From the NCBI RefSeq assembly GCF_003671765.1, contig NZ_QPIB01000043.1, positions 1 through 64,000 of the forward strand: 64,000 bases of DNA, read 5' to 3'. A program made the translations under genes and the position numbers. The notes beneath the pieces are model-generated. The model saw only the letters and a list, made by a program, of their open reading frames with translations. It was not told where the DNA came from and searched no databases. The stretch is from Xenophilus sp. E41 (GTDB lineage: Bacteria > Pseudomonadota > Gammaproteobacteria > Burkholderiales > Burkholderiaceae_C). Below, in pieces: positions 17,166 through 29,002 of the stretch (the first letter of the stretch is position 1; the number at the start of each line of letters is the position of its first letter).

Positions 17166-17723
17166 TCAACGGTCGTCGAGCGTCGACTCGGGCTTCTCGA
17201 GCACGCTGTAGCCGCGCCGCCAGTGGATGCGCGCCACCTGGATCGAGCGCCAGCACATGGCCGCGAAGCCGAACAGGCACAGCGCGTAGACGATGTTCAT
17301 CGGCGCATCGACGATGGTCATGCGCGTCTGGTTGCCGATCTTCAGCATCATCTGCACCGTCATGACCACCGCGGCCGCGAAGAAGGCGATGCGCAGCACG
17401 TCCACGATGCGCGACATCCAGCGCCCCATTGCTGCCGGCATGTAGCGGTAGAAGAAGTCGACCTGGATCGCGAGGTTCTTCGACACACCGATCGCCGCGC
17501 CGATGAACACCACGCCGATCAGCATGTAGCGCGCCACCTCCTCGGTCCAGGCGGCCGAGTCGTTCATCACGTAGCGCGTAACGAACTGGTAGAACACCGT
17601 CAGCCCGAGCAGCCAGAACAGCGCCAGCGCGATCCAGCCCTCGGCGATCGTGCCCGACAGGTCGACCACCTCGTCCTGCGCATGGAAGTTGCCTTCGTCG
17701 TCGATGATCTTTTCATCGCTCAT
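17166..17723 (-). CDS. TRAP transporter small permease (DctQ type)
   Basis: The 185-residue protein has four hydrophobic segments after a ~30-residue acidic N-terminus, matching DctQ. AAWTEEVARYMLIGVVF is the conserved second-helix signature. It forms the membrane complex with the DctM subunit. The ATG at 17723 follows AAGGAGA by ten bases, which favours it over an upstream in-frame ATG at 17855. A three-hairpin repeat lies between this gene and the binding-protein gene upstream. Confidence 0.9.
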   Translation of the reverse strand: MSDEKIIDDEGNFHAQDEVVDLSGTIAEGWIALALFWLLGLTVFYQFVTRYVMNDSAAWTEEVARYMLIGVVFIGAAIGVSKNLAIQVDFFYRYMPAAMGRWMSRIVDVLRIAFFAAAVVMTVQMMLKIGNQTRMTIVDAPMNIVYALCLFGFAAMCWRSIQVARIHWRRGYSVLEKPESTLDDR

Positions 17724-17780: not shown

Positions 17781-17880
17781 TTCGCGTGCACCCGCGGAAC
17801 CGGCTTTGCCGGGCCGCTGGGTGCGCCCCCTGGAGGGGGTATCGGACGGCCACACGAAGTGAGGCCGTCCAAACGGGGGG
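17781..17880 (-). repeat. three-hairpin intergenic repeat, copy A
   Basis: Read on the minus strand, this starts with CCCCCCGTTTGG. It then forms hairpin 1 (GGACGGCC with GGCCGTCC), hairpin 2 (CCCCCTCCAGGGGG) and hairpin 3 (outer GCACCC with GGGTGC, inner CCGGCAAAGCCGG). It begins 4 bases after the dctP stop codon and precedes the small permease gene, so it is transcribed in the operon. Copy B lies at 26381-26476 with different bases but the same pairing in the outer stems. Confidence 0.8.
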
Positions 17881-17883
17881 GAG

Positions 17884-18879
17884 CTATTTGATCGCGATGA
17901 TCCGGTCGTAGTCCTGCTGCCGGTAGCCGTGGTCGGTGGGCTTGGTGGCCTTCAGCACCGCCTCGCGGAAGGCGTTCTTGTCGACCGTGATGACGTTGTT
18001 GCCCTTCTTCTTGAACTCCTCGACCAGGCGGGCCTCGGAGGCGATGATTTCGCGGCCCGTCTTCTCGGCGGCTTCTTCCATCACCTCGCCGAAGATCTTC
18101 TTCTCGTCCGCCGACAGCTTGCCCCACAGCTGCCCCGACACCACCGTGAGCAGCGAGTCGACGATGTGGCCGGTGAGCGAGATGTTCTTCTGCACCTCGA
18201 AGAATTTCTTCGCCTCGATGGTCGGCAGCGGGTTCTCCTGTGCATCCACGGTGCCGTTCTGCAGCGCCAGGTACACCTCGGCGAAGGCGATCGGCGTGGC
18301 GTTGGCGCCCAGCGCCTTCGGGAAGGCCAGGTAGGCCGGCGCATCGGGCACGCGGATCTTCAGGCCCTTCATGTCCTCGGGCTTGTTGACCGGCTTGGCC
18401 GCGCTCGAGGTGACGTGGCGCGCCCCGTAGTAGTTCAGCGCCGTGATGTGGTTGCCGGTCTTGTCGTCGTAGCCCTTGGCAAGCTCCTTGAACACGTCGC
18501 TCTTGGCGTACTTCAGCTGGTGCTCGGCGTCGCGGAAGATGAAGGGGAAGTACGACACGGCCAGCGGCGGGTAGCTGCGCCCCGCGAAGCTCGCGCCGGT
18601 GAGCACGATGTCCACCGTGCCCAGCGTCAGGCCCTGGTTGATGTCGGCCTCCTTGCCCAGGCTCGAGGCTGGGAAGACCTGGATGTCGTACTTGCCGTTG
18701 GTGCGCTTCTTGATCTCTTCGGCCGCCCACACCGAGTACTTGTGGAAGGGCTCGGAGGTCTCGTAGACGTGCGCCCACTTGAGCTTGGTCTGCGCATTTG
18801 CAATGCCGAAAGTGCCCAGAGCGCCCGCCATCAGGGCGCAGGCAGCTATGGTCTTGATAGAGTTCCGCTTGTTCATCAT
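17884..18879 (-). CDS. TRAP transporter solute-binding protein (DctP type)
   Basis: This 331-residue periplasmic protein captures the solute for the TRAP permease. A signal peptide is evident (MMNKRNSIKTIAACALMAG, cleavage after NAQ). The mature part has LKWAHVYETSEPFHKYSVWAA, the AEVYLALQNGTVDAQENP segment that includes the family-conserved substrate region, and KIRVPDAP with the carboxylate-binding arginine. It lies 35 bp downstream of the GntR gene in the same direction. Sugar-acid binding is inferred from the adjacent dehydratase. Confidence 0.92.
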   Translation of the reverse strand: MMNKRNSIKTIAACALMAGALGTFGIANAQTKLKWAHVYETSEPFHKYSVWAAEEIKKRTNGKYDIQVFPASSLGKEADINQGLTLGTVDIVLTGASFAGRSYPPLAVSYFPFIFRDAEHQLKYAKSDVFKELAKGYDDKTGNHITALNYYGARHVTSSAAKPVNKPEDMKGLKIRVPDAPAYLAFPKALGANATPIAFAEVYLALQNGTVDAQENPLPTIEAKKFFEVQKNISLTGHIVDSLLTVVSGQLWGKLSADEKKIFGEVMEEAAEKTGREIIASEARLVEEFKKKGNNVITVDKNAFREAVLKATKPTDHGYRQQDYDRIIAIK

Positions 18880-18914
18880 GTCCGTCGTCTCCTCGTGGTG
18901 GTGGGTGCTGGCGC

Positions 18915-19622
18915 TCAGGAAGCCTTCGCGCGGCGCCAGCTCGCGCTGAATCGTTGGTGCGACTTGTCCATGTGCTCGTGCATCGCGGCGCGGGCGGCCG
19001 CGGCGTCGCGTGCCGCGATGGCGTCGCGGATCGCCTCGTGCTCGGCGATGGCCGAGCGCCAGGACTTCACGGTCTCGAAGTAGCCGCCCAGGCGCGTGAA
19101 GATCGGGCCCTTGCGCGAGTCCCAGAAGCCCTGCACCGTCTCGGCCAGCACGACGTTGTCGCAGGCCTCGACGATGGCGACGTGGAAGGCGCGGTCGCCC
19201 TCCAGCGGCATGGTGTTGCGGTCGGCCAGCTCGCGCATGCTGGCAATGGCGCGGTCGATGGCGTCCAGATGCGTGCGCTTGCGCTGCAGCGCGGCGATGG
19301 CGGCGGTCTCGCCTTCCACCACGCGTCGCGCGCGAATGAGTTCCAGCGGGCCCCATTCGGTTTCGGCCACGGGGGCGCTGGCGCGGTGGCTGCGGTCCAG
19401 CACGTACACGCCCGAACCCGTGCGCACCTCGACCCAGCCTTCGACCTCGAGCGCGATCAGCGCCTCGCGCACCGAGGGCCGACTCACGCCCAACTGCTTC
19501 GACAGGTCGCGCTCCGCGGGCAGGCGGTCGCCCACGGCAAACTCGCCCTTCGCGATGAGGGCCCGCAGCTGGTCCGCGATCTGGCGGTACAGGCGCTGGG
19601 GTTCGACGGTCTGCAGGGGCAC
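18915..19622 (-). CDS. GntR-family regulator, FadR subfamily
   Basis: This 235-residue repressor-like protein has an N-terminal winged helix (LYRQIADQLRALIAKGEF, then RLPAERDLSKQLGVSRPSVREAL) and an all-helical FCD effector domain with the metal-ligand type residues in DRAFHVAIVEAC and HEAIRDAI. It heads the minus-strand TRAP-dehydratase operon and is divergent from the SDR-FAH pair. A 7+4+7 palindrome 32 bp upstream of its start is the probable operator controlling both directions. The effector is likely a pathway acid or keto-acid. Confidence 0.92.
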   Translation of the reverse strand: MPLQTVEPQRLYRQIADQLRALIAKGEFAVGDRLPAERDLSKQLGVSRPSVREALIALEVEGWVEVRTGSGVYVLDRSHRASAPVAETEWGPLELIRARRVVEGETAAIAALQRKRTHLDAIDRAIASMRELADRNTMPLEGDRAFHVAIVEACDNVVLAETVQGFWDSRKGPIFTRLGGYFETVKSWRSAIAEHEAIRDAIAARDAAAARAAMHEHMDKSHQRFSASWRRAKAS

Positions 19623-19653
19623 GGCAGGCAGGATTGCGGAAGGGGATTGCGGG

Positions 19654-19671
19654 TTGTCCAGAATTGGACAA
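19654..19671. promoter_or_regulatory. probable GntR/FadR-family operator
   Basis: The site reads TTGTCCAGAATTGGACAA: perfect 7-bp arms (TTGTCCA/TGGACAA) around a 4-bp centre. It is located between the divergent GntR and SDR genes. Spacing and symmetry fit a dimeric GntR-family repressor, but no experimental site for this protein is known to me. Confidence 0.6.
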
Positions 19672-19778
19672 GTGGTCAGGCCAATTCAGAATACGATGCG
19701 TTGCCGCGCCGCCCCATCGGGCCTAACCCCAAGCGCGGCCTCTTCCTCACTTCAGCGACTTCGACGGAGACACACCCC

Positions 19779-20513
19779 ATGCGACTCAAGGGCAAGACCG
19801 CGCTGGTCACGGCGGCGGGCCAGGGCATCGGCCATGCGAGCGTGCTGGCCATGGCGGCCGAAGGGGCCGAGGTCTGGGCCACCGACGTCAACGAGGCGCT
19901 GCTCGCGCGCTACGCCGGCGTCGCCAACGTGCGCACCGCGCGCCTGGACGTGCTCGACAAGGCCGCCATCGACGCGCTCGTCGGCGGCCTGCCCAAGCTC
20001 GACGTGCTCTTCAACTGCGCCGGCGTCGTGCACAACGGCACGGTGCAGCAGGCCAGCGATGCCGACCTGGACTTCGCCTTCCGCCTGAACGTGCGCGCGC
20101 AGATGTGGACCATCCAGGCCGCGCTGCCCCTGATGCTTGCGGCCGGGCGCGGCAGCATCATCAACATGGCGAGCGTGTGCTCCAGCATGAAGGGGTTGCC
20201 CAACCGCTTCGTCTACGGCACCACCAAGGCGGCGGTGCTGGGCCTGACCAAGAGCGTGGCCGCCGACTACGTGGCGCAGGGCATCCGCTGCAATGCCGTG
20301 TGCCCCGGCACGGTGGACACGCCTTCCCTGGGCGAACGCATCAATGCGAACGCCGACCCGGAGGCCGCGCGCAAGGCCTTCATCGCGCGCCAACCGATGG
20401 GCCGCCTCGCGCAGGCCGAAGAGATCGCCCCGGTGGTGGTGTTTCTCGCCAGCGACGAGTCGATCTTCGCCACCGGCCAGGCCTTCACCGTCGACGGCGG
20501 CATCACCATCTGA
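19779..20513 (+). CDS. SDR dehydrogenase, 2-keto-3-deoxy-L-fuconate dehydrogenase-like
   Basis: This 244-residue classical SDR has TAAGQGIGHA (residues 11-20) for cofactor binding, Asp36 at the end of the second strand (NAD preference), NCAG, Ser132 and YGTTK with Tyr146 and Lys150. The sequence resembles the BDH2/2-keto-3-deoxy-L-fuconate dehydrogenase group. It is followed 73 bp later by an FAH-family hydrolase, the pairing known from L-fucose and D-arabinose oxidative pathways. It is divergent from the GntR regulator, with the palindromic operator in between. Confidence 0.88.
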   Translation: MRLKGKTALVTAAGQGIGHASVLAMAAEGAEVWATDVNEALLARYAGVANVRTARLDVLDKAAIDALVGGLPKLDVLFNCAGVVHNGTVQQASDADLDFAFRLNVRAQMWTIQAALPLMLAAGRGSIINMASVCSSMKGLPNRFVYGTTKAAVLGLTKSVAADYVAQGIRCNAVCPGTVDTPSLGERINANADPEAARKAFIARQPMGRLAQAEEIAPVVVFLASDESIFATGQAFTVDGGITI

Positions 20514-20586
20514 AGTCAGCCGAGATGCCTTGGCGCGAGGCGACACTCGGCACCGTCCCATTCACTCTCACAGGAACCCAAGACCC

Positions 20587-21435
20587 ATGAAACTCGTCCG
20601 CTACGGCAACCCCGGCAAGGAGAAGCCCGGCCTCATCGACGCCGAAGGCAAGCTGCGCGATCTCAGCGGCGTGGTGGCCGACATCGGTGGCGCGCAGCTC
20701 GGCGACGCGGCGCTGGCGAAGCTGCGCAAGCTCAAGACCGACAAGCTGCCGCTGGTGCGCGGCAAGCCGCGCTTCGGTTGCCCGGTCGCGGGCGTGGGCA
20801 AGTTCATCGCCATCGGCCTGAACTTCGCCGACCACGCCGCCGAGTCCGGTGCGCCCATCCCGAAGGAGCCCATCGTCTTCATGAAGGCGACCACCTGCAT
20901 CCAGGGCGCGAACGACCCCGTGATGCTGCCCAAGGGATCGACCAAGACCGACTGGGAGGTCGAACTGGGCGTGGTGATCGGCACCCGCGCCCGTTACGTC
21001 TCGCAGAAGGACGCGCTGAACTTCGTGGCCGGCTACGCGGTGGTCAATGACGTGAGCGAGCGCGAGTTCCAGCTCGAGCGCGGCCCGCAGTGGGACAAGG
21101 GCAAGGGCTGCGACACCTTCGGCCCGATCGGCCCCTGGCTGGTCACGCGCGACGAGGTGCCCAACCCGCAGAAGCTGGGCATGTGGCTCGACCTCAACGG
21201 CAAGCGCGTGCAGACCGGCAACACGAAGACCATGATCTTCGGCGTGGCCAAGCTGGTGAGCTACGTGAGCCAGTTCATGACACTGGAGCCGGGCGACGTG
21301 ATCACCACCGGCACGCCGCCGGGCGTCGGGCTGGGCATGAAGCCGCCGCTGTACCTGAAGAAGGGCGACGTGATGACCCTGGGCATCGACGGCCTGGGCG
21401 AGCAGCACCAGGACGTGGTCGCGTTCAAGCTCTGA
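20587..21435 (+). CDS. FAH-family hydrolase, 2,4-diketo-3-deoxy-L-fuconate hydrolase-like
   Basis: This 282-residue fumarylacetoacetate hydrolase-fold enzyme has an N-terminal ~70-residue domain (VRYGNPGKEKPGLID) and a C-terminal catalytic barrel. Visible motifs are GLNFADHAAE, the metal site in DWEVELGVVIG, VVNDVSEREFQ, and TTGTPPGVG near the end. Such proteins are often labelled ureidoglycolate lyase. The neighbouring SDR and UxaA-type dehydratase instead favour hydrolysis of a 2,4-diketo-3-deoxy acid to pyruvate and a hydroxyacid. It closes the plus-strand part of the sugar-acid regulon. Confidence 0.88.
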   Translation: MKLVRYGNPGKEKPGLIDAEGKLRDLSGVVADIGGAQLGDAALAKLRKLKTDKLPLVRGKPRFGCPVAGVGKFIAIGLNFADHAAESGAPIPKEPIVFMKATTCIQGANDPVMLPKGSTKTDWEVELGVVIGTRARYVSQKDALNFVAGYAVVNDVSEREFQLERGPQWDKGKGCDTFGPIGPWLVTRDEVPNPQKLGMWLDLNGKRVQTGNTKTMIFGVAKLVSYVSQFMTLEPGDVITTGTPPGVGLGMKPPLYLKKGDVMTLGIDGLGEQHQDVVAFKL

Positions 21436-21460
21436 CCGGTTGCAGGGTGCCGCTGCGGCC

Positions 21461-22348
21461 TCAGCGCAGCAGCTGCACCAGCGCGTCGTACACCAGTCGC
21501 ACGCGCGCCGGCACCGGCGCGCGCTGGGCGCGGTAGACGTGGATCGGCCAGGGCGGCGGCGCCGCGCTCTCCAGTGCCGGCACGAGCGCGCCGCTGGCGA
21601 TGAGCGGCTCGGCCAGCGCGCCGATGAGCTGGCCGAAGCCCACGCCCGCGCACACGGCGGCGCACTCGGCGTCGAAATCGTCGGTCACGAAAGCCGGGCG
21701 CGCCGGGACGATCTGCCGCCCCTGGCTGAACAGCAGCGGCCAGGGGCGGTTCGACTTGCGGTCGATCAGCGCCGTGAGCGGGAGCTCGGCCAGCGCCTCC
21801 ACGCTGCGCGGCAGGCCGGTGCGGGCCACCAGCGACGGCGCTGCAACCACATGCAGCGCCATCCGGCCCACGGGGCGTGCCACGAAGCGGGCGTCGCGCA
21901 AGGCGCCCACCCGGACGCCGATGTCGATCTGCTCGTCGACCACGTCGGCATGCGTCTCCGAAACCCGCAGGTCGAGCACCAGCCCAGGGTGTTGCGCGAG
22001 CAGCGGCGCCAGGGCCTCGGGGATCAGCCGCCGGCCGAAGATGCCCGGCGCGGTGACGCGCACGGTGCCCGCGTGCTGCGAGGCCGCGCGGCGGTCGGCA
22101 CGTTGGAAGAGCGCATCCACGCCTTGCACGGCCGCACGCGCGCGTTCGGCCAGCGCGCGGCCGTATTCCGTCAACTGAACGCCGCGCGTACTGCGATGGA
22201 ACAGCGGCTCGCCCAGTTCGTCCTCCAGTTCGCGCACGGCACGCGTCACCACCTGCGGCGATACCGAAAGGCGCAGGGCGGCCTCGCGGAAGTTGACCGC
22301 GTCGGCGGCAATGCAGAACACGCGCAGGGCATCGAGGCGCTGGGTCAT
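21461..22348 (-). CDS. LysR-family transcriptional regulator
   Basis: The 295-residue protein has an N-terminal winged helix ([23 protein letters not shown], then [21 protein letters not shown]) and a C-terminal substrate-binding domain beginning [16 protein letters not shown]. It is divergent from an SDR gene with 112 bp between starts, the classic LysR arrangement, so it probably controls that gene. A short inverted repeat lies just upstream of its own ATG. The inducer is unknown. Confidence 0.9.
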
Positions 22349-22354
22349 GGCAGG

Positions 22355-22371
22355 CTATTCCGTGAAGTGGA
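22355..22371. promoter_or_regulatory. possible LysR binding site
   Basis: The site reads ATTCCGTGAAGTGGAAT: 5-bp arms with a 7-bp centre, containing the T-N11-A pattern common to LysR sites. It sits 7 bp upstream of the LysR start codon in the divergent gap, where autorepression sites are usual. Short arms make a chance match possible. Confidence 0.4.
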
Positions 22372-22460
22372 ATTCTGAAGTCGCAAGAGTTTCATTGTCG
22401 GGAACGGCTGGATTTTCCACACTGCAGTCACTCCCTCCACAACCACTGAAAGGAAATGCC

Positions 22461-23219
22461 ATGACTTCTCTCCAAGACAACATCGCCGGCAAGGTCGCCA
22501 TCGTCACCGGCGCCAGCAGCGGGCTCGGCGAATCGACTGCCCGCCACCTGGCGGCGCGGGGCGCCAAGGTGGTGCTCGCGGCCCGACGCACCGACCGGCT
22601 CGACGCGGTCGTCGCCGATATCCGCGAGGCGGGCGGCGAGGCCATCGCGGTGGCCACCGACGTCGCGAAGCGCGCCGACCTCGAGCGTCTGGTGGCGAAG
22701 ACGGTCGAGGCCTTCGGCCGCGTCGACGTGCTGGTCAACAACGCCGGCGTGATGCCGCTCTCGCGCCTGGACAAGCTCAAGGTCGACGAATGGGACCGCA
22801 CCATCGACGTCAACATCAAGGGCGTGCTCTACGGCATCGCCGCTGTGCTGCCGCGCATGCAGGCGCAGGGCAGCGGCCACATCGTCAACATCGCCTCGAT
22901 CGCCGGGCACAAGGTGTTCACGCCCATCGGCACGGTGTACAGCGCCACCAAGCATTCGGTGCGGGCCATCTCCGAAGGGCTGCGCGTCGAGGTCGGCGGC
23001 AGCGGCGTGCGTGTGACGGTGGTGTCGCCCGGCGCGGTCGAATCCGAGCTCAAGTTCGGCAGCACCGACGCCGAGAGCGCTGCGGGCGTGAAGGCCTTCT
23101 ACGACGCCAACCAGATCCCGGCCGACTCGGTGGCCCGCGCCGTGGTGTACGCCGTCGAGCAGCCGGCCCAGGTCGACATCAACGAGGTGGTGCTGCGGCC
23201 GGTCACGCAGGAGTTCTGA
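22461..23219 (+). CDS. SDR family oxidoreductase (clavaldehyde/serine dehydrogenase-like)
   Basis: This 252-residue classical SDR shows TGASSGLG (residues 16-23), the basic pair Arg42-Arg43 after strand 2 (NADP preference), [10 protein letters not shown], Ser146 and YSATK with Tyr160 and Lys164. Related proteins (YdfG-like) reduce short carbonyl or hydroxy compounds. It is transcribed away from the LysR gene and is probably its target. AAAGGAAATGCC precedes the ATG as a good ribosome-binding site. The substrate cannot be assigned. Confidence 0.87.
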
Positions 23220-23286
23220 TCGCTGCGGACGCGCGCCATACCCCGTGGCGCGCAGGGGGCTTGTGCGGTCGGGCGAAAGTCCTGCA

Positions 23287-23312
23287 AAATAGAACGACCG
23301 TTCGTTTTATTT
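23287..23312. promoter_or_regulatory. TetR operator upstream of the acyl-CoA degradation operon
   Basis: A 26-bp palindrome has 11-bp arms with one mismatch: AAATAGAACGA at 23287 and TCGTTTTATTT at 23302, around CCGT. It ends 14 bp before the TetR ATG, so it overlaps or abuts the promoter. The AACGA...TCGTT core is typical of TetR regulators of acyl-CoA genes in proteobacteria. Autoregulation of the gene and its downstream operon is the likely role. Confidence 0.75.
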
Positions 23313-23326
23313 GGACTTCGCCCCCG

Positions 23327-24013
23327 ATGACCGCATCCCTCGCTTCCGCCAAGGCCGGACGCCCAGCCCCCAAGGGCCAGCAGACCAAGGCCGTCATCGT
23401 CGATGCGGCGCTGGCGCTGGCCGCGCAGATCGGGCTCGAGGGCCTGTCGATCGGCGCCGTGGCCGAGATCACCAAGATGAGCAAGTCGGGCGTGTTCGCC
23501 CACTTCGGTTCGCGCGAGGAACTGCAGATCTCGGTGGTGCGCGAGTACCACGCGCGCTTCGAACAAGAGGTCTTCTTCCCTGCACTCAAGTCGCCGCGCG
23601 GCCTGCCGCGCCTGCGCGCGATGTTCGCCAACTGGATGAAGCGCACCTCGACCGAGATCGATTCGGGCTGCATCTACATCAGCGGCGCTTCGGAGTTCGA
23701 CGACCGGCCCGGCCCGGTGCGCGACGCGCTGGTCGAGTCGGTCAGCATCTGGCAGGCGGCGGTGCTGCGCGCCATCCAGCAATCGCAGTCCGAAGGCCAC
23801 CTCCAGGCCGATGCCGATGCGCGCCAGATCGCCTTCGAGGTGCACGGCCTGATCCTGGCGCTGCACTACGAGGCGCGCTTCCTGCGCGTGCCCGGCTCCA
23901 TCGACCGCGCGAACACCGGCTTCGACAACATCCTCGCGCGCATCGCCACCGCCGATGCGCCGCCGGCCGCGGTCGCGCCGAAGGCCGCGCGCCGGCTCAA
24001 GACAGTGCGCTGA
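23327..24013 (+). CDS. TetR-family transcriptional regulator of acyl-CoA genes
   Basis: This 228-residue repressor has an N-terminal helix-turn-helix (GLEGLSIGAVAEITKMSKSG, then VFAHFGSREEL) and a C-terminal ligand domain with YISGASEFDDRPGPVRD, a segment seen in TetR proteins next to acyl-CoA dehydrogenases. A lysine/proline-rich N-terminal tail precedes the DNA-binding domain. It starts the run leading to acyl-CoA dehydrogenase and thiolase genes. An acyl-CoA ligand is a reasonable inference. The ATG at 23327 immediately follows the palindromic operator. Confidence 0.9.
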   Translation: MTASLASAKAGRPAPKGQQTKAVIVDAALALAAQIGLEGLSIGAVAEITKMSKSGVFAHFGSREELQISVVREYHARFEQEVFFPALKSPRGLPRLRAMFANWMKRTSTEIDSGCIYISGASEFDDRPGPVRDALVESVSIWQAAVLRAIQQSQSEGHLQADADARQIAFEVHGLILALHYEARFLRVPGSIDRANTGFDNILARIATADAPPAAVAPKAARRLKTVR

Positions 24014-24081
24014 GCACCGTCATCGCCCCCTTTTTTTCTTTCTTCCTTTCATTTTTTCGTTTTCGACCAGGAGAGTCCCGG

Positions 24082-25878
24082 ATGCCCACCTACACCCCGC
24101 CGCTGCGCGATATGCAATTCGTGCTGCACGAAGTCTTCCAGGTCGCCGACGAGCTCAAGGCCCTGCCCGCGCACGCCGAGACCGACGCCGACACGATCAA
24201 CGCGGTGCTCGAGGAGGCCGGCAAGTTCGCGGCCGAGGTGACCTTCCCGCTCAACATCAGCGGCGACACCGAGGGCTGCACGCTGAACAAGGAAACGCAC
24301 GAAGTCACGGCGCCCAAGGGCTTCAAGCAGGCCTACGCGCAGTTCGTCGAAGGCGGCTGGCCGGCGCTGTCGTGCGACCCTCAGTACGGCGGCCAGGGCC
24401 TGCCCTTCGTGGTCAACCAGTGCCTGTACGAGATGCTCAACAGCGCCAACCAGGCCTGGACCATGTACCCGGGGCTGTCGCACGGCGCGTACGAGGCGCT
24501 GGTCGCCCACGGCACCGACGAGCAGAAGAAGACCTACCTGCCCAAGCTCACCAGCGGCGAATGGACCGGCACCATGTGCCTGACCGAGCCGCATTGCGGC
24601 ACCGACCTGGGCCTGCTGCGCACCAAGGCCGAACCGCAGGCCGACGGCACTTACCGCATCACCGGCAGCAAGATCTTCATCTCGGCCGGCGAGCACGACC
24701 TGGCCGACAACATCATCCACCTGGTGCTCGCCCGCCTGCCCGACGCGCCCAAGGGCAGCAAGGGCATCAGCCTGTTCGTGGTGCCCAAGTTCCACGTCAA
24801 GGCCGATGGCTCGCTGGGTGAGCGCAACCCGATCTACTGCGCCGGCCTGGAGCACAAGATGGGCATCCACGGCAACGCCACCGCACAGATCGTGATCGAG
24901 GGCGCCACCGGTACGCTGGTGGGCGAGCCCAACAAGGGCCTGGCCGCCATGTTCGTGATGATGAACGCCGCCCGCCTGGGCGTGGGCAACCAGTCGCTGG
25001 GCCTGACCGAGGTCGCTTTCCAGAACGCGCTGGCCTATGCCAAGGACCGCCTGCAGATGCGCTCGCTCTCGGGCGTGAAGGCCAAGGACAAGGAGGCCGA
25101 CCCGATCATCGTGCACCCCGACGTGCGCAAGATGCTGCTCACGGCCAAGGCGTATGCCGAAGGTGCCCGCGCGCTGCAGATCTTCTGCACGTTGCTGCTG
25201 GACAAAGAGCACCACCACCCCGACGAAAAGGTGCGCAAGGACGCGGGCGAGCTGGTCGCGCTGCTCACGCCGATCGTCAAGGCCTTCATCACCGACAACG
25301 GGCACATCAGCACCAACGCGTGCATGCAGGTCTTCGGCGGCCACGGCTTCATCAAGGAATGGGGCATGGAGCAGTTCGTGCGCGACAACCGCATCAACAT
25401 GATCTACGAGGGCACGAACACCGTGCAGTCGCTGGATCTACTGGGCCGCAAGGTGCTGGGCAACAACGGCGCCAGCCTCAAGAAGTTCGGCAAGCTGGTG
25501 GGCCGGCTGGTGGAAGAAGAGGGCGTGAACGAGAAGATGGCCGAGTTCATCAACCCGATCGCGGGCCTGGGCGACCAGCTCACCAAGTTCACGACCGAGA
25601 TCGGCTTCAAGGGCTTCCAGAATCCCGACGAGGTGGGTGCGGCGGCCGTCGACTACCTGCGCGTGGCGGGCCATTTCGTGTTCGGCTACCTCTTCGCCCG
25701 CATGGCACAGGTGGCGCTGCGCGAGATTGCGGCCGGCAACACCGACCCCTTCTACGTCGCCAAGCTGCAGACCGCGCGCTTCTACTTCGCCAAGCTCTTC
25801 CCCGAGACGGCGACGCTGATGCGCACCGCGCGCGCCGGCAGCAAGGTGCTGATGGACACCGACGCGGCGCTGGCCTGA
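24082..25878 (+). CDS. Acyl-CoA dehydrogenase (600-residue DmdC-like class)
   Basis: This flavoenzyme oxidises acyl-CoA to 2-enoyl-CoA. At 598 residues it belongs to the longer class with an extra N-terminal segment (PPLRDMQFVLHEV) and a C-terminal extension, as in DmdC and related beta-oxidation enzymes. Motifs: GTMCLTEPHCGTDLG (FAD/substrate loop), KIFISAGEHDL, GGHGFIKEWGMEQFVRD and IYEGTNTVQ with the probable catalytic Glu443. It is preceded by a 68-bp gap with a long pyrimidine tract and an AGGAGAG ribosome-binding site. Later genes supply hydratase, dehydrogenase and thiolase steps, so a complete spiral is encoded. Confidence 0.93.
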   Translation: MPTYTPPLRDMQFVLHEVFQVADELKALPAHAETDADTINAVLEEAGKFAAEVTFPLNISGDTEGCTLNKETHEVTAPKGFKQAYAQFVEGGWPALSCDPQYGGQGLPFVVNQCLYEMLNSANQAWTMYPGLSHGAYEALVAHGTDEQKKTYLPKLTSGEWTGTMCLTEPHCGTDLGLLRTKAEPQADGTYRITGSKIFISAGEHDLADNIIHLVLARLPDAPKGSKGISLFVVPKFHVKADGSLGERNPIYCAGLEHKMGIHGNATAQIVIEGATGTLVGEPNKGLAAMFVMMNAARLGVGNQSLGLTEVAFQNALAYAKDRLQMRSLSGVKAKDKEADPIIVHPDVRKMLLTAKAYAEGARALQIFCTLLLDKEHHHPDEKVRKDAGELVALLTPIVKAFITDNGHISTNACMQVFGGHGFIKEWGMEQFVRDNRINMIYEGTNTVQSLDLLGRKVLGNNGASLKKFGKLVGRLVEEEGVNEKMAEFINPIAGLGDQLTKFTTEIGFKGFQNPDEVGAAAVDYLRVAGHFVFGYLFARMAQVALREIAAGNTDPFYVAKLQTARFYFAKLFPETATLMRTARAGSKVLMDTDAALA

Positions 25879-25929
25879 TTTCCCTCGCGGCCGCGCTCAT
25901 CGATTCTAAAAAAACCAGTGGAGACGCCC

Positions 25930-26373
25930 ATGAAAACTGCGGCAGCAGCTATCGTTTTCGTAGCAATCGCCGGCCCGGCGCTGGCGCAGATGAGCCCGGT
26001 GGGGCTGTGGCGCAGCGCCGACGACAAGACCGGCGAGGTCAAGGCCGAGATCCGCATCGACGACATCGGCAGCGGCCGCCAGGCGCTGTCCGGCCGCATC
26101 GTGAAGACGCTCAAGAAGGATGCCAAGCCCGACGCCACCTGCGACGAGTGCGACGGCGACCGCAAGGGCAAGCCCATCAACGGCCTCGAGATCATCCGCG
26201 GCGGCACGAAGGCCGAGGGCAAGGAGGTCTGGGAAGGCGGCCGCATCCTCGACCCCGAGAACGGCAAGGAATACCGCGCCAGCTTCACGCCCATCGACGG
26301 CGGCAGGAAGCTGGAGGTGCGCGGCTACCTCGGGCCCTTCTGGCGCACGCAGACCTGGACGCGCGTGCAGTGA
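25930..26373 (+). CDS. DUF2147 secreted protein
   Basis: This 147-residue exported protein has a clear signal peptide (MKTAAAAIVFVAIAG, cleavage after LAQ). Its DUF2147 domain starts at SPVGLWRSADDKTGEVKAEI. Two cysteines in the CDEC segment may bind each other or a metal. The function is unknown. In many proteobacteria the family sits beside beta-oxidation genes, as here between acyl-CoA dehydrogenase and the bifunctional enzyme. The ATG at 25930 is preceded by GGAGA. The DNA encoding the signal peptide matches a dispersed short repeat. Confidence 0.88.
   Translation: MKTAAAAIVFVAIAGPALAQMSPVGLWRSADDKTGEVKAEIRIDDIGSGRQALSGRIVKTLKKDAKPDATCDECDGDRKGKPINGLEIIRGGTKAEGKEVWEGGRILDPENGKEYRASFTPIDGGRKLEVRGYLGPFWRTQTWTRVQ
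25945..25965. repeat. dispersed GC(T/A)GCTATC short repeat, copy 2 (inside signal-peptide codons)
   Basis: The copy reads GCAGCTATCG, then TTTTCGTAGCA. It forms part of the coding sequence for the DUF2147 signal peptide, showing that the motif can be absorbed into hydrophobic coding sequence. Confidence 0.45.
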
Positions 26374-26380
26374 TGACCCA

Positions 26381-26476
26381 CCCCCGTTTGGTTTTCTCAC
26401 TGCGTGTAGAAAACCCATACCCCCTCAAGGGGGCAACACCAGCGGCCCGGCAAAGCCGGTTCCGTGGTGTTCCCCC
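26381..26476 (+). repeat. three-hairpin intergenic repeat, copy B
   Basis: The copy starts CCCCCGTTTGG. It then has hairpin 1 (GGTTTTCT with AGAAAACC), hairpin 2 (CCCCCTCAAGGGGG) and hairpin 3 (outer AACACC with GGTGTT, inner CCGGCAAAGCCGG). It lies 7 bp after the DUF2147 stop and before the bifunctional beta-oxidation gene. Relative to copy A at 17781, the outer stems differ on both sides while pairing is kept. Confidence 0.8.
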
Positions 26477-26506: not shown

Positions 26507-29002
26507 ATGACTCAGTTCAATGTGAAGAAGGTCGCCGTGCTCGGCGCCGGCGTGATGGGCGCGCAGATCGCCGCCCACCTCGTGAACGTGCGCGTGCCGG
26601 TCGTCCTGTTCGATCTCCCCGATGGCAAGACCCCCACGCTCCCCGCTTCGCGTGGTTCGCTGCCCCCCGAGGGGGCTGGTGCCGCCTTGGGGCGGCCCGG
26701 CGTCGGCACCGAAGGCCCGAAGAACGGCATCGTCCTCAAGGCCATCGACAACCTGAAGAAGCTCAAGCCCGCGCCGCTGGGCGTGCCGGAAGACGCGGCG
26801 CTGATCCAGGCCGCGAACTACGAGGAGCACCTCGCGCTGCTGGGCGAGTGCGACCTCGTGATCGAGGCCATCGCCGAGCGCATGGACTGGAAGCTCGACC
26901 TCTACAGGAAGATCGCGCCGCACGTCGCGCCGCATGCCATCCTGGCGTCGAACACCTCGGGCCTGTCGATCACGAAGCTGGCCGAGGCGGTGCCGGAGTC
27001 GATCCGCCCGCGCTTTTGCGGCATCCACTTCTTCAACCCGCCGCGCTACATGACGCTGGTGGAGCTGATCCCCACGCCGACCACCGGGCCACAGGTGCTC
27101 GACGACCTCGAGACCTTCGCCATCCGCGCGCTGGGCAAGGGCGTGGTGCGCGCCAAGGACACGCCCAACTTCATCGCCAACCGCATCGGCATCGCCGGCA
27201 TGCTGGCCACGCTCAAGGAAGTCGACAAGTTCGGCCTTTCCTTCGACGTGGTCGACGACCTCACGGGCAAGCGCCTGGGCCGCGCGAGTTCGGGCACCTT
27301 CCGCACCGCCGACGTGGTGGGCCTGGACACGCTGGCCCACGTCGTCAAGACGCTGCAGGACAACCTGAGCGAGGCGACCGATCCGTTCTACCCGAACTTC
27401 GCCACGCCGCCGGTGCTGGCGAAGCTGCTGGAACTGGGCCAGCTGGGCAACAAGACCAAGGCCGGCTTCTACAAGAAGGCGGGCCGCGACATCCTGCGCT
27501 TCGACCTGGAGACGGGCGACTACGTGCCGGCAGGTGCCAAGGCCGACGAGGTCTACGGCCGCATGCTCAAGAAGCCGGCCGCCGAGCGCCTGAAGCTGTT
27601 GCGCAACGCCGAAGGGCCGCAGGGCCAGTTCCTCTGGGCCATCCTGCGCGACGGCTTCCACTACGCGGCCGTGCACCTGGCCGACATCGCCGAGAGCGCC
27701 CGCGACATCGACCTGGCCATGCGCTGGGGCTTCGGCATGCAGCAGGGCCCCTTCGAGCTCTGGCAGGAGGCGGGCTGGAAGCAGGTGGCGCAATGGATCC
27801 AGGAGGACATCGATGCCGGCAAGGCGCTGTCGAAGGCGCCGCTGCCGAAATGGGTGTTCGAAGGCCCGGTCGCCGAGGCCGGCGGCGTGCACACGCCCGA
27901 GGGGTCGTGGAGCGCGGCCGAGCAGCGCTTCGTGCCGCCGCGGCGCCTGCCGGTGCATGCGCGCCAGCTCTTCCCCGAGACGGTGCTCGGCAGCGGCGAG
28001 AAGACGGCTACCGAGGCGGGTACCACGATCAGCGACGAGGGCGACGTGCGCGTCTGGACGCTGGACAAGGATGGATTCGAAGGGGTGCTCATCGCCAGCA
28101 TCCATTCCAAGATGAACGCCATCAGCCCCGACGTGGCCGAGGCGCTGGCCGAGGCGGTGGCCCTGGCCGAGCGCGAGTACCAGGGGCTGGTGATCTGGTC
28201 GCCGGACGACAAGTTCTCGGTCGGCGCCGACCTGCAGGCCATGCTGCCGGCCTTCGTGGTCGCAGGCATCGGCGCCGTCGAGGGCGCTGAAAAGGCCTTG
28301 CAGGACGTGATGCTGCGCATGCGCTACGCCAACGTGCCGGTGGTGGCCGCGGTGCGCGGCCTCGCGCTGGGCGGCGGCTGCGAGCTGGCGGTGTACAGCG
28401 CGCGCCGCGTGGCCGCGATGGAAAGCTACATCGGCCTGGTGGAAGTGGGCGTGGGCCTGGTGCCCGGCGCCGGCGGCCTGACCTACATCGCGCGCCGCGC
28501 CGCCGAGAACGCGGCCGCATCGACCGGTGCCGATCTGCTGCCCTTCCTCACCGAAGGCTTCACCGCCGCGGCCATGGCCAAGGTCGGCACCAGCGCGCTC
28601 GAATCGAGGAAGCTGGGCTACCTCGTCGAGGGCGACGTGATCGTGCCGAACAAGGACGAGCTGCTCTACGTGGCCATCCAGCAGGCCAAGGCGATGGCAG
28701 ATGCCGGCTGGCGCCCGCCGATGAAGCGCAGCTTCCGCGTCGCCGGCCGCAGTGGCGCCGCGACGATCAAGGGCCAGCTGGTCAACATGCGCGATGGCGG
28801 CTTCATCAGCCAGCACGACTTCCACATCGCGAGCCTGATCGCCCACGTGGTCACGGGCGGCGACGTCGATGCCGGCACCCTCGTCACCGAGGAGTACCTG
28901 ATGGGCCTGGAGCGCGAAGCCTTCTGCGCCCTGGTGCAGCACCCCAAGACCCAGGAACGGATCATGGGCATGCTCTCGACCGGCAAGCCGGTCCGCAACT
29001 GA
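26507..29002 (+). CDS. 3-hydroxyacyl-CoA dehydrogenase/enoyl-CoA hydratase fusion (FadN-like domain order)
   Basis: This 831-residue bifunctional enzyme hydrates enoyl-CoA and oxidises the 3-hydroxyacyl-CoA. The order is dehydrogenase first: NAD site LGAGVMGAQIA (residues 12-22), SNTSGLSI, HFFNPPRYM with the catalytic His, and the C-terminal dehydrogenase domain to ~470. The hydratase domain follows from ~520 (GADLQAM oxyanion loop, LALGGGCELAV, GVGLVPGAGG). This matches Bacillus FadN rather than E. coli FadB. Residues ~39-68 are an extra segment encoded by a hairpin-forming repeat, absent from the usual FDLP-to-KNGI spacing. Thiolase follows after 20 bp. Confidence 0.92.
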   Translation: MTQFNVKKVAVLGAGVMGAQIAAHLVNVRVPVVLFDLPDGKTPTLPASRGSLPPEGAGAALGRPGVGTEGPKNGIVLKAIDNLKKLKPAPLGVPEDAALIQAANYEEHLALLGECDLVIEAIAERMDWKLDLYRKIAPHVAPHAILASNTSGLSITKLAEAVPESIRPRFCGIHFFNPPRYMTLVELIPTPTTGPQVLDDLETFAIRALGKGVVRAKDTPNFIANRIGIAGMLATLKEVDKFGLSFDVVDDLTGKRLGRASSGTFRTADVVGLDTLAHVVKTLQDNLSEATDPFYPNFATPPVLAKLLELGQLGNKTKAGFYKKAGRDILRFDLETGDYVPAGAKADEVYGRMLKKPAAERLKLLRNAEGPQGQFLWAILRDGFHYAAVHLADIAESARDIDLAMRWGFGMQQGPFELWQEAGWKQVAQWIQEDIDAGKALSKAPLPKWVFEGPVAEAGGVHTPEGSWSAAEQRFVPPRRLPVHARQLFPETVLGSGEKTATEAGTTISDEGDVRVWTLDKDGFEGVLIASIHSKMNAISPDVAEALAEAVALAEREYQGLVIWSPDDKFSVGADLQAMLPAFVVAGIGAVEGAEKALQDVMLRMRYANVPVVAAVRGLALGGGCELAVYSARRVAAMESYIGLVEVGVGLVPGAGGLTYIARRAAENAAASTGADLLPFLTEGFTAAAMAKVGTSALESRKLGYLVEGDVIVPNKDELLYVAIQQAKAMADAGWRPPMKRSFRVAGRSGAATIKGQLVNMRDGGFISQHDFHIASLIAHVVTGGDVDAGTLVTEEYLMGLEREAFCALVQHPKTQERIMGMLSTGKPVRN
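26621..26710 (+). repeat. in-frame hairpin repeat inserted in the beta-oxidation gene
   Basis: Ninety bases form three hairpins: CCACGC (26634) with GCGTGG (26650); CCCCC with GGGGG around 26669; and an outer GGTGCC (26678) with GGCACC (26705) enclosing GCCGCC and GGCGGC. The length is exactly 30 codons and adds a Pro/Gly/Ala/Arg-rich loop just after the second strand of the NAD-binding fold. The plan of three stems with a poly-C/poly-G middle stem resembles the intergenic copies at 17781 and 26381. Confidence 0.7.

Follow-up and report, generated by a model that had tools for sequence, protein, structure and literature searches.

We found that two three-hairpin repeats in the window, that is, the whole 64,000-nt stretch of Xenophilus sp. 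E41 DNA under analysis, belong to a repeat family that we term family A. Its many copies share a fixed anatomy and lie mostly in the sense orientation within about 12 nt of a stop codon, with no preference for the letters of that stop. At orthologous sites, elements were present in some genomes and absent from others, and whole elements as well as a module had been replaced. The reading that we favor, while judging the case for it evenly balanced, is that family A is a dispersed, modular, REP-like 3'-UTR cassette placed directly past stop codons, which is spread and exchanged as DNA and would act in mRNA as a 3' barrier. It is abundant at the gene ends of a large family of environmental bacteria.

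Copy 1 occupies positions 17788–17881 of the minus strand, between a DctP gene and a small permease-like gene. The DctP (TRAP solute receptor) gene is the 3' part of an open frame at 17884–19671 (minus strand; Pfam PF03480) whose true start codon is internal to the frame, and its TAG stop lies at 17886–17884. The gene after the repeat, a putative small DctQ-like TRAP permease judged from its translation and place, has its start codon at 17721–17723 (minus strand). Copy 2 occupies positions 26381–26471 of the plus strand, between a DUF2147 open frame (25918–26373, plus strand; Pfam PF09917; TGA stop at 26371–26373) and a fadB-like gene on its 3' side (26507–29002, plus strand). Both copies, with their hairpins and paired changes, were present as an earlier note on this DNA had first described them, and they lie as close to stops as it had claimed (no more than 8 bp): the C-runs that open the copies begin 2 nt (copy 1) and 7 nt (copy 2) past the stop. 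A search with model R1, which was built from hairpins 2 and 3 of 29 aligned copies with a short hairpin 2, matched positions 17786–17842 (minus) and 26417–26473 (plus), and these were the only two family A copies in the whole window.

The anatomy of family A runs in the order C-run, hairpin 1 (of several sequence types), hairpin 2 (a C-run paired with a G-run) and hairpin 3. In copy 1 (minus strand) these parts are the C-run at 17881–17875, hairpin 1 at 17870–17844 (arms 17870–17863 and 17851–17844), hairpin 2 at 17839–17826 (arms 17839–17835 and 17830–17826) and hairpin 3 at 17824–17788. The corresponding parts of copy 2 (plus strand) are 26381–26385, 26390–26415 (arms 26390–26397 and 26408–26415), 26420–26433 (arms 26420–26424 and 26429–26433) and 26435–26471. 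From its base inward, hairpin 3 has a 6-bp outer stem whose sequence is free, a single bulged base, a second stem of 4 bp, a C/TT internal loop and the tip CYGGC-nnn-GCCRG. We counted nine base pairs in which both partners differ between the two copies (five in hairpin 1, the other four in hairpin 3's outer stem), in agreement with the roughly nine reported before. The three-hairpin fold drawn in the earlier note stood in part: both copies folded better as RNA than their shuffles (z = −4.97 for copy 1 and −3.84 for copy 2), but the predicted minimum of copy 2 omitted hairpin 2, whose G-run paired instead with C's further 3'. Run lengths were correlated among 139 distinct copies (Spearman 0.39 for the first C-run with the G-run, 0.38 for the second C-run with the G-run, and 0.32 for the two C-runs), copies in which either kind of run was unclear being left out. 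The first C-run may pair alternatively with the G-run, yet descent within subfamilies may explain the correlation. In three copies from the window's own genome (L024, L040, L043) a different hairpin (CAAGCCTGCGC..GGCTTGGAGCCG) replaced the usual C-run and hairpin 1 upstream.

Family A is numerous in the genome that holds the window. A 24-base piece of hairpin 3 occurred at 43 places with up to 3 mismatches, and its reversed pattern at none; a short 13-mer, allowing up to 2 mismatches, matched 9 times vs 5.5 expected, a count that is not telling by itself. Model R1 matched 57 places at E ≤ 1, one pair of which is the same sequence on two contigs, and 53 at E < 1e-6. Eight arbitrary 20-kb stretches of the same genome gave no R1 match. 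Contigs C39 and C40 of this genome (G000) carry three identical repeat neighborhoods (L015/L016, L047/L048, L057/L058), reflecting duplication or assembly overlap. Across the window's bacterial family, R1 matched 87 of 120 genomes (E ≤ 0.01, with at most 46 candidates scored per genome). A phylum-wide draw gave matches in 9 of 398 genomes, all 9 from that bacterial family; three further members were among the 20 listed of the 389 genomes without a match. Thus, family A was found only in the window's own bacterial family, which we judge from named relatives to be the Comamonadaceae. The nearest relatives in a FadB search were Comamonadaceae bacterium ALPHA2B and Xenophilus sp. Marseille-Q4582, followed by Variovorax.

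We compiled 160 copies (54 from the window's own genome, 84 from other genomes of the bacterial family, for which the best-scoring copies were taken, and 22 from around fadB orthologues) after leaving out L001 (overlaps L011), L016 (the same as L015 on another contig) and L091 (same species). For 146 of these copies, the end of a co-directional ORF (100 codons or longer) lay no more than 140 nt upstream. The first run of four C's began within 12 nt past the stop of that ORF in 132/160 copies, compared with 2.1% of random points drawn anywhere in the same loci, spacers and genes alike. In two sister genomes, for which weak copies were also included, the first C-run lay within 12 nt of a stop in 55 of 73 copies. 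Random placement with respect to stop codons, which the earlier note had said would speak against its proposal, was thereby ruled out. The stops beside the repeat (TGA 96, TAA 25, TAG 14; n = 135) followed background usage (TGA 230, TAA 44, TAG 49; n = 323), indicating that the stop itself, and not the letters TGA, predicts where the repeat lies. By eye, an ATG or GTG often overlapped the stop beside family A, which raises the possibility of a short ORF within the repeat.

By crude GC3-based gene calls, the upstream gene ran with the repeat in 135 of the 160 copies and against it in 5, the remaining 20 having no assignment. Between two genes of the same direction, 83 copies were sense and 3 antisense, in line with the co-directional setting described earlier. 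Solute or transport receptors made up 8 of the 30 upstream genes that were scanned individually, a possible excess; in a background of 96 proteins, at least 4 were receptors, as counted among the 25 commonest families listed. For a larger set of 114 upstream proteins the listing likewise gives the 25 commonest families, so that no receptor ratio is stated.

Occupancy differed among relatives at both junctions in the window. Family A occupied the DUF2147–fadB junction in the window, in 4 of the 18 Variovorax loci (L127, L129, L137, L138), in Hydrogenophaga (L160) and in Polaromonas (L174 and L198), was reduced to a weak remnant in L192, and was absent from both nearest relatives. On a fadB tree of 29 rows (the window and 28 of the 80 fadB loci, with seven hand-picked outgroups of which three were occupied), the 8 occupied rows required 7 changes, each of which well-supported branches made necessary; the tree counts changes, be they gains or losses. 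Occupied loci L138 and L129 had different hairpin 1 types and similar tails. At the dctP–dctQ junction, the window has a sense copy and Variovorax OV329 (G516) a decayed sense copy past the stop. Genome G510 has an antisense copy there with its C-run 8 nt before the dctQ start, and genome G511 has a 50-nt spacer with another small palindrome in place of family A.

Similar turnover was seen elsewhere in the genome. Nineteen of the 54 own copies matched one of 70 fetched sister loci by their flanks, a figure that is not a count of shared elements because some of the sister elements sit elsewhere (e.g., L004/L299). Of 11 own sites checked in G511, 9 were without the element and 2 aligned through; these 11 are a subset of 30 sites chosen for having no flank match to the fetched sister copies, so that 9/11 is not a general rate. 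At two of the 9 empty sites (L002 and L015) G511 has an unrelated palindromic repeat. At the L028 site, the G511 genes (L356) overlap by ATGA, whereas in the genome of the window they are separated by a stop codon, the repeat and a new leader. Orthologous sites also held near-identical shared copies (e.g., L010/L270 and L027/L296), as well as copies that had been exchanged. That is, in L008/L280 the upstream gene is 97% identical and yet the two genomes differ in repeat subtype and stop codon, and in L038/L305 the tip of hairpin 2 has been swapped inside an otherwise similar element. Because orthologous genes lack the repeat in many relatives, the repeat must be dispensable there. Another palindromic spacer repeat (CCGTTC..CTGAGC..GTCGAAG ... 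CTTCGAC..GCTCAG..GAACGG) was seen before fadB in L120 and in L358, L353, L143, L162, L178, L182 and L193; repeats of this type twice occupy sites that hold family A in the window's own genome.

Family A would spread as DNA through copying or recombination between copies, perhaps aided by a transposase, with both stem arms moving together. In enteric bacteria, the REP between malE and malF is a 3' barrier that favors the upstream cistron. By analogy, the hairpins of family A in mRNA may protect the upstream cistron at its 3' end, slowing 3'-to-5' decay and raising the yield of that cistron over the downstream one. The single orientation, short offset from the stop, co-directional sites and frequent upstream solute receptors (8/30) all fit such a barrier. 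An effect on terminating ribosomes is also possible, as has been reported for the E. coli REPs near stops. Against the barrier, three of the 86 copies between co-directional genes were antisense by the crude gene calls, and the antisense copy in G510 lies beside the dctQ start. The many orthologous genes that lack the repeat and the predicted fold of copy 2, from which hairpin 2 is missing, also speak against it. If the barrier reading is true, family A would set the ratio of receptor to permease in transport operons; if it is false, the stop-codon rule calls for a novel insertion mechanism.

A serious rival to the 3' barrier is a selfish, REP- or MITE-like repeat with no host role, whose survivors are seen only at the least harmful places just past stops. 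The scattered occupancy at fadB (7 changes for 8 occupied rows) and the many empty orthologous sites are in its favor, and we regard it as possible though clearly short of probable. However, a harmless insert could sit at any point of a spacer and face either way, whereas the observed copies have a short offset and are mostly sense. We consider it rather unlikely that gene ends in this bacterial family have an acceptor slot past the stop that is recognized through translation termination or mRNA instead of DNA letters, with some dedicated machinery placing and swapping hairpin cassettes in one orientation.

The paired changes had been taken in the earlier note as a sign of selection on RNA structure, maintained pair by pair through compensatory mutation. 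The changes themselves were well above the shuffled and slid controls in the alignment of 29 copies: 96.4% of cells were paired, compared with 86.3% when shuffled and no more than 48.6% when slid, and 54 cells were doubly changed vs 14.5 after shuffling. Two of five covariation measures (pairs with a double change, and further pair types) fell within the shuffle range in this alignment. In 144 of 148 distinct sequences, hairpin 1 folded better than its own shuffles did on average, with 1002 Watson–Crick and 49 G-U pairs under RNA folding rules that allow G-U, and one double change from G-C to A-T was found between the orthologous copies L035 and L308. Stepwise compensation in RNA is expected to pass through, and to tolerate, G-U pairs.

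We counted pair types in 164 distinct hairpin 3 sequences, which were drawn from 233 copies after removal of repeats and of those with fewer than 10 of 15 Watson–Crick pairs, and which had 70 different outer stems. Of 2460 cells, 2387 were Watson–Crick, 18 G-U, 15 A-C and 40 other, even though the model used to find the copies would, if anything, favor G-U over A-C. In contrast, eight tRNAs in the same loci had 26 G-U and 0 A-C in 198 pairs, a small control in which the tRNA program itself favors pairing. Because G-U was no commoner than A-C, hairpin 3 gave no sign of pair-by-pair selection on RNA, and exchange of whole elements or of a module, which brings both arms at once, would account for the paired changes. 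The inference from paired changes to selected RNA structure was thus unsupported, and we judge that explanation improbable. It looks as if pairing is kept in the manner of DNA, with both arms copied or exchanged jointly or with a DNA hairpin as the unit. Paired changes among dispersed copies alone are no proof of selection on RNA, and the count of G-U against A-C offers a simple discriminator for it.

Family A has the features by which REPs are recognized, being dispersed, extragenic, palindromic and present in many copies (53 at E < 1e-6, and 146/160 behind ORFs). It could accordingly be a REP proper, mobilized by a REP-associated Y1 transposase (RAYT), and the genome does have one Y1_Tnp gene. 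However, the 3.3-kb locus of that gene had no family A match, and no Y1_Tnp match was found in 7 of the 29 genomes that had 20 or more family A matches, compared with 32 of 120 genomes overall. The abundance of family A is therefore independent of the Y1 transposase gene, and we rejected the RAYT link, which we consider very improbable. Copies read by eye had three hairpins and no evident GTAG- or CGTC-type REP tag. A transcription terminator of the upstream gene is scarcely credible: strong hairpins do lie past genes, and 17/160 copies fall between convergent genes by the crude calls, but 83/160 lie between co-directional genes and neither window copy has an intrinsic-terminator-like site (a GC-rich hairpin followed by a T-run) on its sense strand, which led us to reject intrinsic termination for these two copies and leaves the partial termination proposed earlier unsupported. 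Copy 2 has two overlapping weak terminator-like sites on the opposite strand. Membership in a family of Rfam was likewise rejected, since the whole window gave 0 matches at gathering score and copy 1 alone gave 3, all far below their gathering scores; the earlier statement that no named family applies holds for Rfam.

We compared family A with other known elements. Integron attC sites have strictly paired DNA arms of free sequence and conserved unpaired bases, and lie directly behind a gene. Family A resembles them in its paired, sequence-free arms directly past a gene, but no attC boxes were evident by eye, and its copies are single and dispersed with no cassette array. The MIRU of mycobacteria, which targets DTGA, is likewise a mobile intergenic repeat at operon gene junctions. 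MIRUs insert at start codons, and their ORF is coupled to the next gene (accessible text of PMC12548453); unlike them, family A follows a stop whatever its letters and is mostly found at a distance from the next start. A MIRU-like insertion targeted to TGA was rejected for family A, given TGA at 96/135 stops beside the repeat vs 230/323 in the background. ERIC-type repeats and the palindromic repeats of Rickettsia are short and mobile, and can enter genes in frame. These and the RU repeats are likened to family A as short mobile repeats by description, not by sequence. Enterobacterial RU repeats can also enter genes in frame (accessible text of PMC2759123).

The closest likeness is to REP/BIME elements of E. 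coli and other bacteria, which are dispersed extragenic palindromes often found past stop codons. In the accessible part of PMC12306157, 446 of 4,072 E. coli REPs lie within 15 nt of a stop, and work cited there indicates that a REP located less than 16 nt past a stop can reduce translation of the gene before it. ORFs that flank GTAG-REPs often take their TAG stop from the ends of these repeats (accessible part of PMC3733652). Family A is tied far more tightly to the stop (132/160) than the E. coli REPs as counted in that part of PMC12306157. It is also about 90 nt long with three hairpins, whereas a REP is one palindrome of 20–40 bp, and both its free outer stem and its lack of dependence on a Y1 transposase gene are unlike a REP. 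A literature search, with most subscription papers outside its reach, found no description of family A. The accessible parts of PMC3733652 and PMC12306157 contain no mention of the genus and family names asked for, and that of PMC2817692 names Variovorax once, in another connection. We concluded that family A is a REP-like repeat not previously described in the literature searched, and that it is not a REP proper, since the link to the transposase was tested and did not hold.

A second structured repeat, family B (CCCCCCGAGGGGGC-arm-CCTTNGGGCGGCC-arm), was observed inside fadB at window positions 26630–26710, where it makes an in-frame insertion of 27 residues (TPTLPASRGSLPPEGAGAALGRPGVGT). 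Among 80 FadB loci this insertion was common to L121 only, and the close relative L120 is without it. Family B occurs at 15 places in the window's own genome (L045–L059) and, by a slightly wider pattern, in 33 of 60 genomes of the bacterial family, with 0 matches for the reversed control. Several copies are located after a stop and before the following ATG; read by eye, they form a short ORF with TGATG or TGACATG at its end. This short ORF before the next ATG is much like that of MIRU, which family B resembles more than family A does. Two tandem family B copies, L052 and L053, lie 91 bp apart (G000:C4:76850-76980).
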